A DNA stretch of 32,744 bases. Origin: Rhodocyclaceae bacterium (GTDB taxonomy: Bacteria > Pseudomonadota > Gammaproteobacteria > Burkholderiales > Rhodocyclaceae). Numbering within the stretch: position 1 is the stretch's first letter; every line of letters starts with the position of its first letter. A program made the translations under genes and the position numbers. The notes beneath the pieces are model-generated. The model made no database searches and was not told the origin of the DNA. It saw only the letters and a list, made by a program, of their open reading frames with translations. This document shows positions 1-8,881 of the stretch, piece by piece. The DNA lies in the NCBI GenBank assembly GCA_019750575.1, contig JAIEOJ010000024.1, forward strand, positions 1-32,744. Direction: 5' to 3'.

Positions 1-621
1 GTCGAGTACCTGGAAATGCAGGGGCATCAGGTCGATGTTGCCTACGATGGCACGGCGGCGATGACGCGCCTGTCGGCACAGACCTACGATGTGCTGGTGC
101 TCGATCTGGGTTTGCCGCGCGCCGACGGCCAGCATGTACTGCATCATCTGCGTCATGTACTGGGCCTGGCAACACCGGTGCTGGTGCTGACCGCGCGTGA
201 TGCACTGGCAAGCAAGCTGGAAACCCTGGCCGCCGGTGCCGATGATTACCTGAGCAAACCCTTCTCGCTGGCCGAGGTGGCCATGCGCGTGGCGGTGCTG
301 CACCGCCGTGCCAGCGGCGCCGTGGTGGCCGATGTGGTGCGCGCCGGCGCGCTGCGCATGGACCGGCGCACGCGCGCCGTCAGCGTGGGTGAAACCCCGG
401 TGCACCTGATGCCGCGCAGCATGCAGATCCTCGAAGCGCTGCTGCGCGATCCCGGCCGCGTGGTGTCGCGCCAGGCGCTGGAAGACCTGCTCTGGCCCGA
501 CGACGCGCCGGGCGCGGATGCACTGCGCAGCCAGATTCACCTGCTGCGCAAGGCCCTGACGCAGGCCGGCTACGATGGCCTGGAAACCGTGCATGGCGTG
601 GGTTACCGCCTGATCTGCTGA
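1..621 (+). CDS. OmpR/PmrA-family two-component response regulator (5' truncated by window edge)
   Basis: Frame is open from base 1 (VEYLEMQGHQVDVAYDG...). Receiver motifs LDLGLPRADG, TARD and SKPF, plus a C-terminal winged helix ending VHGVGYRLIC. Confidence 0.93.
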   Translation, partial: VEYLEMQGHQVDVAYDGTAAMTRLSAQTYDVLVLDLGLPRADGQHVLHHLRHVLGLATPVLVLTARDALASKLETLAAGADDYLSKPFSLAEVAMRVAVLHRRASGAVVADVVRAGALRMDRRTRAVSVGETPVHLMPRSMQILEALLRDPGRVVSRQALEDLLWPDDAPGADALRSQIHLLRKALTQAGYDGLETVHGVGYRLIC

Positions 622-1919
622 TGCGACTGATCCCGTCCCGCCTCAATCTCAAGCAGCGCGTGATCCTCGCGCTGACCGCGCTGGTCGCCCTGTTTGTAAT
701 CATGCAGGGCAGCCTGGCCTATCTGTCCATGGTCGAACAGGAGGATGAGCTGGTCGATGAACTGGTGCTGGCGGAAGCGCGTCGCCTCGCCACTCGCGTC
801 GGCCATGACGAGTTCACGGGCGTGCAGGCGACCGCGCTGCTCACGCTGAGTCCGCACTTTTCCGGCTGGCTGGCGGGCAATGACGGCAAGGTGTCGCCGG
901 GCCCATTGCCCGTCGCGCTGCGTGGCCTGCCGGTCGGACCGCACCTGATCAAGGACAGCGATGCCGAGTTGCACGCCTATGTGATGCCCACCGCCGACGG
1001 CCTGCTGTACGTGCAGTACAACGCCGAACAGCACGAGGAGAAGGTGCGTCAGTTCGGCTTCTACCTGATCGGCCTGGGCGCGCTCTGCATTGTGCTGGCG
1101 GCACTGATGGCGCGGCAGATCGCCAGCATCGTGGTGGCACCGCTGGAGCGGCTGGCGCGCCTGCTTGGCGAGTGGGCGCCGGGCACCATGCCGGCCGACG
1201 AGCGCGACGAGGAAGCGCGCCTGCTGACCGCCTTCCGCCGCGTGCAGGAGCGTTTCGAGGAGGGCATTGCGCATGAGCGCGAATTCGTCGCCAATGCGCG
1301 CCACGAGATACGCACCCCGCTGACCGCCCTGCGCACCGATCTGGAGATGCTGGCCCTGAATGCCGGCGCAGAGCTGCAGCAGCGCCTGCAGCGCGCGATC
1401 ACCAGCGTGGACGAGATTGCCGGCGCGCTGGATCTGGCCCACACCCTGGCGCAGCAGCGTGCGCAGAATGCCGAGCCGGTTGATCTCGGCCTTTGCATTG
1501 ATGCCGCATGGGCCAGCCTGGCCGGGGTTGCCGGCACGGAAGGGCTGGGCTTCAGCAACCGGGTCGCTCCCGGCGTGAGTGTCGTGGCCGACCGCCACGC
1601 CCTGCTGACCATTCTGCGCAACCTGATCCGCAATGCCGCCGAGCATGCGGCGGCCACGAATTGCACGGTGACGCATACGGCACGCGGCATCGAGGTTGCG
1701 GATGACGGCGTGGGCATCGCGGCCGCAGACCTGCCGCTGGTGTTCGACCGCTATCACCGTGGTCGCCGCGTCGATGCGCCGGATCAGGCGCTGCATGGCG
1801 AACGTGGTCTGGGGCTGGCCATCGCGCGCCAGATCGCCGACCTGAATGGCTGGCAGCTGACGGTCGAGTCATCCGCCGGCCGCGGTACCTGCTTCATCCT
1901 CGGCCTCAATTCGGCCTAG
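621..1919 (+). CDS. Sensor histidine kinase
   Basis: N-terminal TM segment, second TM near 1060-1140, H-box REFVANARHEIRTPLTAL, N-box NLIRNAAEHA, G-box DDGVGI and GERGLGLAIA. Start overlaps the response regulator stop (TGATG). Confidence 0.94.
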   Translation: MRLIPSRLNLKQRVILALTALVALFVIMQGSLAYLSMVEQEDELVDELVLAEARRLATRVGHDEFTGVQATALLTLSPHFSGWLAGNDGKVSPGPLPVALRGLPVGPHLIKDSDAELHAYVMPTADGLLYVQYNAEQHEEKVRQFGFYLIGLGALCIVLAALMARQIASIVVAPLERLARLLGEWAPGTMPADERDEEARLLTAFRRVQERFEEGIAHEREFVANARHEIRTPLTALRTDLEMLALNAGAELQQRLQRAITSVDEIAGALDLAHTLAQQRAQNAEPVDLGLCIDAAWASLAGVAGTEGLGFSNRVAPGVSVVADRHALLTILRNLIRNAAEHAAATNCTVTHTARGIEVADDGVGIAAADLPLVFDRYHRGRRVDAPDQALHGERGLGLAIARQIADLNGWQLTVESSAGRGTCFILGLNSA

Positions 1920-2188: not shown

Positions 2189-2228
2189 CTTTCACGAAAC
2201 TTCAACGCCGCTTCGACGCGGCTTCAAC
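2189..2228 (+). promoter_or_regulatory. Putative response-regulator binding array (PmrA/OmpR-type direct repeats) upstream of the PAP2-eptA genes
   Basis: CTTTCAC (2189), CTTCAAC (2200), CTTCGAC (2211) and CTTCAAC (2222) start exactly 11 bp apart. A possible -10 TAGACT lies at 2240-2245 and the start codon at 2272. Confidence 0.55.
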
Positions 2229-2271
2229 AGACGGCTCCCTAGACTGCATGGCTTCTCCCTGAGGCCGTGCC

Positions 2272-2997
2272 ATGCCGCTATCTACTCCCTTCTACCGCAT
2301 CCACCTGCTGCTGGTGCCGGGCGCGCTTGCGCTGGCGGGCTGGCTGGCGCAGCACAGCGGCCTTGACCAGGCTCTGACCGCGCTCTTCTACGATGCCGCG
2401 CAGGCGCGCTTCCCCGCGCATGAATCGCCGCTGCTCGAGCTGTTCGGTCATCGTCTGGCCAAGGATGCGGTGACCTTCGTCTGGCTCGGCCTGCTTGCAG
2501 CCGTGCTCAGCACCTACGCCTGGCCGCAGTGGCGGCCGGCCCTGACTGCGCGTCGTAGCTCGCTGTGGGCGGCGGTCAGCGGCATGGCGCTGGGACCGAT
2601 GATCGTGGTCGGCCTCAAGGGCCTGAATTCGCACCACTGTCCCTGGAGCCTGGCCGACTATGGCGGCGCTGCCGAATTCAGCAACAACTGGTTTGTCGCT
2701 GCCAGCGAAGCCGGCCACTGCTTCCCCGGCGGCCATGCCGCCAGCGGCTTCTGCCTGGTGGCCCTGTATTTCATGGCGCATGCGCTGGACAAGCCGGACC
2801 TTGCACGCCGGATGCTGTGGCTCACCCTGCTGACCGGGCTTGTCTTCAGCACCATCCGCATGGCCCAGGGCGCGCACTTCCTCAGTCACAACCTGTGGGC
2901 TGCCGCAATCTGCTGGTTCATCGCTGCGCTGACCGCCTGGATTGCAGGCAGCCAGCGCCGTCAGCCGTTCAACCTCCCGCGTCTGGTGAAGCCATGA
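2272..2997 (+). CDS. PAP2-family membrane phosphatase (lipid A/undecaprenyl-phosphate type)
   Basis: Multi-TM protein with PAP2 signature elements KGLNSHHCPW, HCFPGGHAASGF and RMAQGAHFLSHNLWAA. Confidence 0.9.
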   Translation: MPLSTPFYRIHLLLVPGALALAGWLAQHSGLDQALTALFYDAAQARFPAHESPLLELFGHRLAKDAVTFVWLGLLAAVLSTYAWPQWRPALTARRSSLWAAVSGMALGPMIVVGLKGLNSHHCPWSLADYGGAAEFSNNWFVAASEAGHCFPGGHAASGFCLVALYFMAHALDKPDLARRMLWLTLLTGLVFSTIRMAQGAHFLSHNLWAAAICWFIAALTAWIAGSQRRQPFNLPRLVKP

Positions 2998-4712
2998 ACA
3001 ATCCGAGCACACAAACACTTGCCGCGCCGCTGCGTCTTCTGGTGCAGGACTGGCGTGCGCGTTTCGAACGCTTCACGCTGCACAGTGAAACCCTGCTCCT
3101 CGCCTGTGTCGTCTTCCTGCTGCTGGCGGCCAACGGGCCGTTCTGGTCGGCCCTGCTGGGTGACCGCTCCCTTGCCGAACTGCCGACCTGGCGTCTGGCC
3201 GTGGGCAGCTTCGTGGCGCTCACCGCACTGCACTACCTTGTGCTCGGCCTGTTCGCCACGCGCCGCCTGATCCGGCCGCTGCTCAGCGTGCTGGTGTTTG
3301 TCAGCGTGCTGGTCGGCTACTACATGAATCATTACGGCGTTGTCATCGATCCGCCCATGGTGCGCAATGTCCTGCAGACGGACTGGCGCGAGGCCAGCGA
3401 GCTGCTTACCCCTGATCTGTTTCTGCATGTCCTGCTGGCATTGCTGCCGGTGGCGGCCATCTGGCGGGTGCGCCTGCGTGTGCGTTCGCCGCGTGTCGCG
3501 CTGGCACGCCGCGCCGCCAGCCTCGGCGCGGCCCTGCTGATCGGCGTTGTTGCGCTGCTGGCCTGCTTCCAGGATTTCGGCTCGGCCATGCGTGAACACA
3601 AGGCTATGCGCTACCAGCTCACGCCGGGCAATGTGCTGTGGTCGGGTGGCCGCATTCTGGCCGGCCATGCCCGCAATGCGAACGTGCCGCGCGATCCGCC
3701 CGAAGCCGCGCATCGCGTGTTGCTGACCGCAGCGCGCAAGCCCACGCTGCTGGTGATGGTGGTCGGTGAAACCGCGCGCGCGGCCAATTTCGGCCTCAAC
3801 GGCTATGCGCGCATGAATACGCCCGAGCTGGCTGCGCTCGATGTGATCAATTTCCCGAACGTGACTTCCTGCGGTACCTCGACCGAAGTCTCGGTGCCCT
3901 GCATGTTCTCGCCCTTCGGCCGTGCCGACTACGATGAGGACCGCATCCGCAACCACGAGTCGCTGCTGCATCTGGTTGACCGCGCCGGTCTCCGGGTGAG
4001 CTGGCTGGACAACCAGAGCGGTTGCAAGGGCGTGTGCAGCGGGCTGGATGTGGTGGATCTGGGCGGTGTGCAGGTGGCCGGCCTGTGCGAGGGCGGTCAC
4101 TGCATGGACGAGATTCTCGTGCATGCGCTGCGCGACAAGGTGGCCGCAGGGCAGGGCGACCGCATGATCGTCATGCACCAGCTCGGCAATCACGGGCCGG
4201 CGTATTTCCGCCGCTATCCCCAGGCTTTTGAAAAGTATGCGCCGGCCTGCGCCAACAACGACCTCGGCAGCTGTTCGCAGCAGGAGATCGTGAATGCCTA
4301 TGACAACGCCATCGCCTACACCGATCATGTGCTGGGGCAGACCATTGCCTATCTGAAGACCCTGCAGGATCGCTACGACGTGGCCATGATCTATGTGTCG
4401 GACCACGGCGAGTCGCTTGGCGAGCACGGGCTCTACCTGCACGGCGTGCCGTATGCGATTGCGCCGAAGGAACAGACTTCGGTGCCCATGGTGTGGTGGC
4501 TGCCGCAGGAGACCGCCCGCAACCTGAATGTGGATCTGGCCTGCCTGCGCACGCAGTCGCAGCAGGCGGCCAGCCACGACAACCTGTTCTCCTCGGTGCT
4601 GGGCCTGCTCAGCATCGACACGCCGCGCTACAGGAAGGAACGCGACCTGTTTGCCGCATGCCGCCCAGATGCCCGGCACCTGGTACGGGGGGCTGCGCCG
4701 GCGCCGGTTTGA
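2994..4712 (+). CDS. eptA: Phosphoethanolamine--lipid A transferase (EptA/MCR-type sulfatase-fold enzyme)
   Basis: ATG at 2994, in frame with the ORF called from 2565. N-terminal TM helices, VVGETARAANFGLNGYARMNTP, NVTSCGTSTEVSVPCMFSPFGR, HQLGNHGPAYFRRYP, YVSDHGESLGEHGLYLHG. Confidence 0.93.
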   Translation: MNNPSTQTLAAPLRLLVQDWRARFERFTLHSETLLLACVVFLLLAANGPFWSALLGDRSLAELPTWRLAVGSFVALTALHYLVLGLFATRRLIRPLLSVLVFVSVLVGYYMNHYGVVIDPPMVRNVLQTDWREASELLTPDLFLHVLLALLPVAAIWRVRLRVRSPRVALARRAASLGAALLIGVVALLACFQDFGSAMREHKAMRYQLTPGNVLWSGGRILAGHARNANVPRDPPEAAHRVLLTAARKPTLLVMVVGETARAANFGLNGYARMNTPELAALDVINFPNVTSCGTSTEVSVPCMFSPFGRADYDEDRIRNHESLLHLVDRAGLRVSWLDNQSGCKGVCSGLDVVDLGGVQVAGLCEGGHCMDEILVHALRDKVAAGQGDRMIVMHQLGNHGPAYFRRYPQAFEKYAPACANNDLGSCSQQEIVNAYDNAIAYTDHVLGQTIAYLKTLQDRYDVAMIYVSDHGESLGEHGLYLHGVPYAIAPKEQTSVPMVWWLPQETARNLNVDLACLRTQSQQAASHDNLFSSVLGLLSIDTPRYRKERDLFAACRPDARHLVRGAAPAPV

Positions 4713-5511: not shown

Positions 5512-5537
5512 CCCTTCGACAGGCTCAGGGCGAACGG
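5512..5537. repeat. Dispersed palindromic repeat copy (cccttcgacaggctcagggcgaacgg)
   Basis: Same core as the copies at 1942-2168 and 8755-8844. Confidence 0.8.
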
Positions 5538-8755: not shown

Positions 8756-8844
8756 GCTGAGCTTGTCGAAGCCGCAATATCCCTTGTGTTCGCAAACCGA
8801 AGACTTTCAGGCTTGCTTTTCGTGCGGCTTCGACAAGCTCAGCC
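8755..8844. repeat. Pair of dispersed repeat cores in inverted orientation forming 22-bp perfect arms
   Basis: ggctgagcttgtcgaagccgca at 8755-8776 is the reverse complement of tgcggcttcgacaagctcagcc at 8823-8844. Confidence 0.85.
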
Positions 8845-8881
8845 CGAGCGGTTCCTGGTTCACTGAGCATTTTTTCAGGCC

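Follow-up and report, generated by a model that had tools for sequence, protein, structure and literature searches.

A tandem half-site array before PAP2-eptA, very probably a docking site for the neighbouring two-component regulator

Introduction

In the pstS promoter of E. coli K-12, the repeats CTGTCAT, CTGTCAT, CTTACAT and CTGTCAC follow each other with a period of 11 bp and end 10 bp before TATTTT, and a canonical -35 element is lacking. We take these repeats to be Pho boxes, i.e., a double Pho box read by PhoB. The enterobacterial PmrA box is also built from tandem head-to-tail half-sites for an OmpR/PhoB-family regulator and governs lipid A modification genes, including eptA; it has two half-sites, CTTAAT/CCTAAG in K. 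pneumoniae (PMC3973317, PMC4660055). A docking model of class II activation by regulators bound head-to-tail has been described for both PmrA and PhoB (PMC4660055). The cre/blr tag of CreB/BlrA, TTCACN6TTCAC with creD as target, again has two half-sites at an 11-bp period (PMC4689548). M. tuberculosis PhoP reads repeats of the 7-bp motif TCACAGC with a strict 4-bp spacer; in vitro, a synthetic 4 x (7+4) array was bound tighter than a pair, a three-motif array too (PMC4832192).

Here we analysed a stretch of 32,744 nucleotides (the window) from a betaproteobacterial genome of 2.64 Mb in 325 contigs. Between a sensor kinase gene and a PAP2 gene it carries an array that resembles each of these systems in part. 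With pstS it shares four direct half-sites of period 11 and the lack of a canonical -35, but pstS has CTGTCAT-type half-sites, PhoB as regulator, phosphate genes as targets, and a -10 that follows after 10 instead of 11 bp. From the PmrA box it differs in half-site number and sequence, whereas regulator family, tandem arrangement and target class agree. The half-site is very similar to that of the cre/blr tag, yet the latter is a pair, and the window regulator is not CreB by the NCBIfam cut-off. The 7+4 layout is that of M. tuberculosis PhoP, where the motif differs and the four-copy array was an in vitro construct. A description of the operator itself was not found in an open-access literature library, and absence there is no proof.

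Results and discussion

The gene order regulator, kinase, PAP2, eptA is followed by a pteridine reductase gene (Table 1). The PAP2 and eptA reading frames share 4 bp, and a single promoter would therefore serve both. A sequence-only reading of this DNA had pointed out four heptamers with an exact 11-bp period between kinase and PAP2, and these lie where it had placed them, far above chance. When the region 1920-2271 between the genes was dinucleotide-shuffled 5000 times, four CTTYVAC words at period 11 never occurred. The best four-unit array of the real sequence has five of seven columns invariant, and 1000 shuffles searched at periods 8-15 gave at most four. Three TTNNAC words at period 11 are found at a single site in the whole genome, namely in this array, and a relaxed genome-wide target search returned only the window site and one background-looking match on contig C314. 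The same reading had proposed TAGACT as a plausible -10 beyond the last copy; its position holds. In the -35 region (2216-2223), no more than two of six bases match TTGACA with spacers of 16-18 bp. A TTGAC inside a half-site was also considered as an ordinary -35 and rejected, because it lies 11 or 22 bp from the -10 and never 16-18 bp.

Table 1. Window features with their positions, and half-site arrays of other genomes.
Feature	Position	Strand	Remarks
OmpR/PhoB-family response regulator, N-terminus cut by contig end	1..621	+	Pfam Response_reg + Trans_reg_C; candidate array ligand
Sensor histidine kinase	621..1919	+	HisKA + HATPase_c; orthologs at 65% and 61% identity, same gene order
Half-site 1, CTTTCAC	2189..2195	+	unit 1 kept in orthologs
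Half-site 2, CTTCAAC	2200..2206	+	
Half-site 3, CTTCGAC	2211..2217	+	
Half-site 4, CTTCAAC, promoter-proximal	2222..2228	+	
-10-like element TAGACT	2240..2245	+	11 bp beyond half-site 4
PAP2-family membrane phosphatase, lipid A phosphatase-like	2272..2997	+	PF01569; NCBIfam PAP2_lipid_A 65.9 bits, below cut-off 275
EptA/MCR-type phosphoethanolamine-lipid A transferase	2994..4712	+	NF028537 551.7 bits, above cut-off 500; PF00884 + PF08019
Array of G002			CTTTCAC CTTTGAC CTTCGAC CTTTCAC, 11 bp, CACACT
Array of G029			CGTTGAC TTTCGAC CGTCGAC GTTTCAC, 11 bp, TAGAGT
Array of G186			TTTTGAC CTTCGAC CGTTGAC TTTTCAC, 11 bp, TAGAGT
Array of G452 (further family)			GTTTCAC ATTTGAC CTTCGAC CTTCGAC, 11 bp, TAGTGT
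Array of G500 (further family)			GTTTGAC CTTTGAC CAACGAC ACGTCAC, 11 bp, TAGGCT
Array of G625 (further family)			TCTTCAC GTTTCAC TCACCAC CCTTCAC, 11 bp, TACAGT
Arrays of G488 and G445			four units before GT2 gene

Phylogenetic footprinting, which had been proposed as a check, showed that array, 11-bp period and 11-bp distance to the -10 are kept in orthologous loci. Kinase orthologs were found in G002 of the same genus (65%), in G029 of another genus (61%) and in a third genome, G186, all with the same order of regulator, kinase, PAP2 and eptA and with the array in the same register. Spacer bases vary between these orthologs while the register stays constant, and the half-site consensus is nTTYVAC (nTTYVACr plus spacer). 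A scan by PAP2 alignment gave as nearest named relatives the MAG Betaproteobacteria bacterium Ga0074130 and a Sterolibacterium MAG; a scan of genome contigs with the single EptA protein gave no match. In the close orthologs, the surroundings of the regulator's own gene yielded no second array and hence no evidence of autoregulation; the window contig starts inside the regulator.

By alignment search for the regulator, we collected 14 more loci from other families of the order and regulator-bearing genomes in one large family (71 of 201 genomes). In 22 of 22 further loci with PAP2 immediately after the kinase, a matrix built from the four nearest genomes only had its best match on a two- or four-unit 11-bp array; at most 10 of 300 shuffles per locus, and mostly none, reached the score. 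The score of locus L077 was not significant (41/300 shuffles) and that of L142 marginal (8/300). Among 77 loci, TANNNT followed a TTNNA[CT] pair after 11 bp in 25 and after 10 bp in a single one; the other distances from 4 to 19 bp were not represented. Period-11 pairs occurred in 28 loci as against none or one for periods 8-10 and 12-15. Many of these loci are related, with a single family supplying most two-unit cases, and the counts are therefore not independent events. The full pattern of pair and spacing was absent from 200 shuffled sets. The loci had been picked through orthology, and the eye had been the first to spot some of the arrays. About 30 regulator loci had no array after the kinase, and the distant kinases L041-L043 adjoin unrelated genes (MCP, rhodanese, FMN_dh). 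A -10 distance fixed in this way is what would be expected if proteins bound to the half-sites must contact RNA polymerase. Period-11 direct half-sites that end about 10-11 bp before the -10 and take the place of the -35 give the arrays the layout of tandem OmpR/PhoB-type operators at class II activated promoters.

Because the array is conserved with a constant promoter distance across many related bacteria, the neighbouring two-component regulator very probably docks on it, which makes it a switch of a known kind. More specifically, we read 2189-2245 as an activator-dependent, sigma-70-type promoter of PAP2-eptA, at which the adjacent regulator would bind the tandem half-sites in class II fashion, and give this reading a probability of roughly 0.87. 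We infer direct binding by the adjacent regulator, activation, cooperativity of two dimers and an output in resistance or envelope stress. The missing -35, together with a last half-site in the position that PhoB takes at pstS, suggests class II activation through regulators bound in tandem, head to tail. The four half-sites would stand in for the missing usable -35. The phosphorylated regulator would bind them head-to-tail, with two dimers stacked along the same face of the DNA and the promoter-proximal dimer positioned to touch sigma region 4, as PhoB at pstS, and lipid A dephosphorylation together with phosphoethanolamine addition would be switched on. Cooperative filling of four tandem sites is possible, as in vitro work on M. 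tuberculosis PhoP has shown (PMC4832192). Control of the lipid A modification genes by the regulator/kinase pair through the array, as the sequence-only reading had suggested, thus gains support from conservation, geometry and the tracking of array with regulator described below.

Half-site number varies between lineages. Some lineages have two, e.g., genera g134 and g151 with ATTTGACgaatTTTCGAC, 11 bp and TAAAGT or the like; four are found in at least six families. Within the large family, genus g253 has four units (L112, L113, L118, L119), and the arrays of G452, G500, G625 and of G488 with G445 come from four further families. Four half-sites, noted in the sequence-only reading as more than the usual two, are the rule in several families and not one coincidental copy, and they have precedents in E. 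coli pstS and the synthetic M. tuberculosis PhoP array. The two-unit lineages, with their pair in the same place, might also indicate that units 1 and 2 are non-functional relics and the promoter-proximal pair alone matters, or that the adjacent regulator represses. We consider this rather unlikely. The AC is kept at the expected positions of units 1 and 2 in every four-unit locus listed, a conservation that the selection of loci favours, and the last half-site takes the position of a class II activator, as in pstS, and does not cover the -10.

Array and regulator occur together. The strict pattern TTYVAC-N5-TTYVAC-N11-TANNNT had four matches in 10 regulator-bearing genomes, all four at kinase-PAP2 junctions. 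Within the 201 genomes of the large family, it was present in 40 of 71 with the regulator versus 9 of 130 without it (Fisher p 1.5e-14, a value that overstates independence because the genomes are related). The same pattern read backwards as a control, counted manually in this family, was not concentrated in this way and gave 8 matches in regulator-bearing genomes and 29 in genomes without the regulator. Several matches away from the kinase precede sulfatase-fold (EptA-like), GT2 or DedA/VTT envelope-lipid genes, and some sit far from the regulator gene; the motif therefore accompanies target genes and not the end of the kinase gene. In genus g220 (L185, L188-L191, L193), a GT2 glycosyltransferase gene, in most cases remote from the regulator gene, is preceded by a conserved TTTCACGCNGATTCAACG...TACACT site and is a candidate for a separate regulon member.

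As to the identity of the regulator, PF00072 and PF00486 score above cut-off and place it in the OmpR/PhoB family. It scores 140.2 bits against the PmrA (BasR) equivalog NF007928 (cut-off 330), 138.7 bits against QseB (cut-off 345) and, lower still, 121.2 bits against CreB (cut-off 273). The roughly 25 first residues that the contig end removes are too few to account for the gap in the PmrA score. By these curated cut-offs the protein is PmrA/QseB-like, yet not PmrA, QseB or CreB. The residues that contact bases in PmrA are Asn188, Asn196 and Arg210 (PMC4660055); they align with Asp, Leu and His in the window regulator, the recognition helix of which, DALRSQxHLLR, is nearly invariant in the alignment of regulator loci. 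A helix that differs from PmrA at three base-reading residues fits a differing half-site, here nTTYVAC and not the enteric CTTAAT/CCTAAG. Membership in the OmpR/PhoB family and a PmrA/QseB-like character are supported, whereas PmrA or QseB proper and an enteric-type box are not.

Could the array be a real operator that is bound mainly by another OmpR/PhoB-family regulator, e.g., a CreB- or PhoB-like one? Its half-site resembles the cre/blr tag (PMC4689548), about 20 further kinases are encoded in the genome, presumably with a similar number of regulators, and the GT2 array of g220 is remote from the regulator gene. We nevertheless regard such a binder as very unlikely, since matches concentrate in regulator-bearing genomes, the array directly adjoins the regulator/kinase pair in many families and the CreB score is the lowest of the three.

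The dispersed repeat CTTCGACAGGCTCAGNNCGAACG lies at 1946-2166, 5514-5535 and 8828-8849, with several copies as inverted pairs 65-90 bp apart, and occupies most of the approximately 270 bp between kinase and array; in G002, the array begins a few bases past the kinase stop. The window's genome has 28 copies versus 0-2 in three relatives, a lineage-specific expansion. The array is independent of the repeat, because G002, in which no copy was found, has the array, and the window's genome has 28 copies. An earlier concern that one CTTCGAC might be coincidental through the repeat is thereby dispelled: the repeat's AGGCTCAG is missing after the copy at 2211, and unit 3 of G002 is likewise CTTCGAC. 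That the whole array is a coincidence or a by-product of the adjacent repeat (CTTCGACAGGCTCAG...), copies of which stop about 20 bp before it and have CTTCGAC in common with it, is practically negligible as a possibility, since the four-unit array of G002, where no repeat copy was found, refutes a by-product, shuffles yield no such array and other families conserve it.

Under the preferred reading of an activator-dependent PAP2-eptA promoter, we may tentatively speculate, more in doubt than in confidence, that a distinct betaproteobacterial lipid A regulon exists under a PmrA/QseB-like regulator with the half-site nTTYVAC of its own, in which a lineage-dependent two or four half-sites, through one or two stacked dimers, set the threshold or steepness of envelope remodelling on a fixed promoter scaffold. 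For a large group of betaproteobacteria, the analysis provides a concrete, sequence-defined operator and a predicted lipid A modification regulon. Two- and four-site versions exist naturally at an unchanged -10 distance and would allow a clean test of how additional tandem sites serve a regulator of the OmpR/PhoB family.

Some features of the target genes are recorded here in their own right. The third PAP2 motif of the window's phosphatase is R-X5-H-X3-H (RMAQGAHFLSH) instead of the usual R-X5-H-X3-D, as in three of three aligned orthologs. In G500, an 806-aa open frame (L066 604-3021, minus strand) covers both the PAP2 and the EptA matches, and in G029 one open frame (L005 2969-4360) holds PAP2 and the start of EptA; both appear to be PAP2-EptA fusions. 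DgkA recycles the diacylglycerol released by EptA, and a dgkA-like gene that reads as diacylglycerol kinase (L005 327-746) adjoins the G029 regulator divergently.
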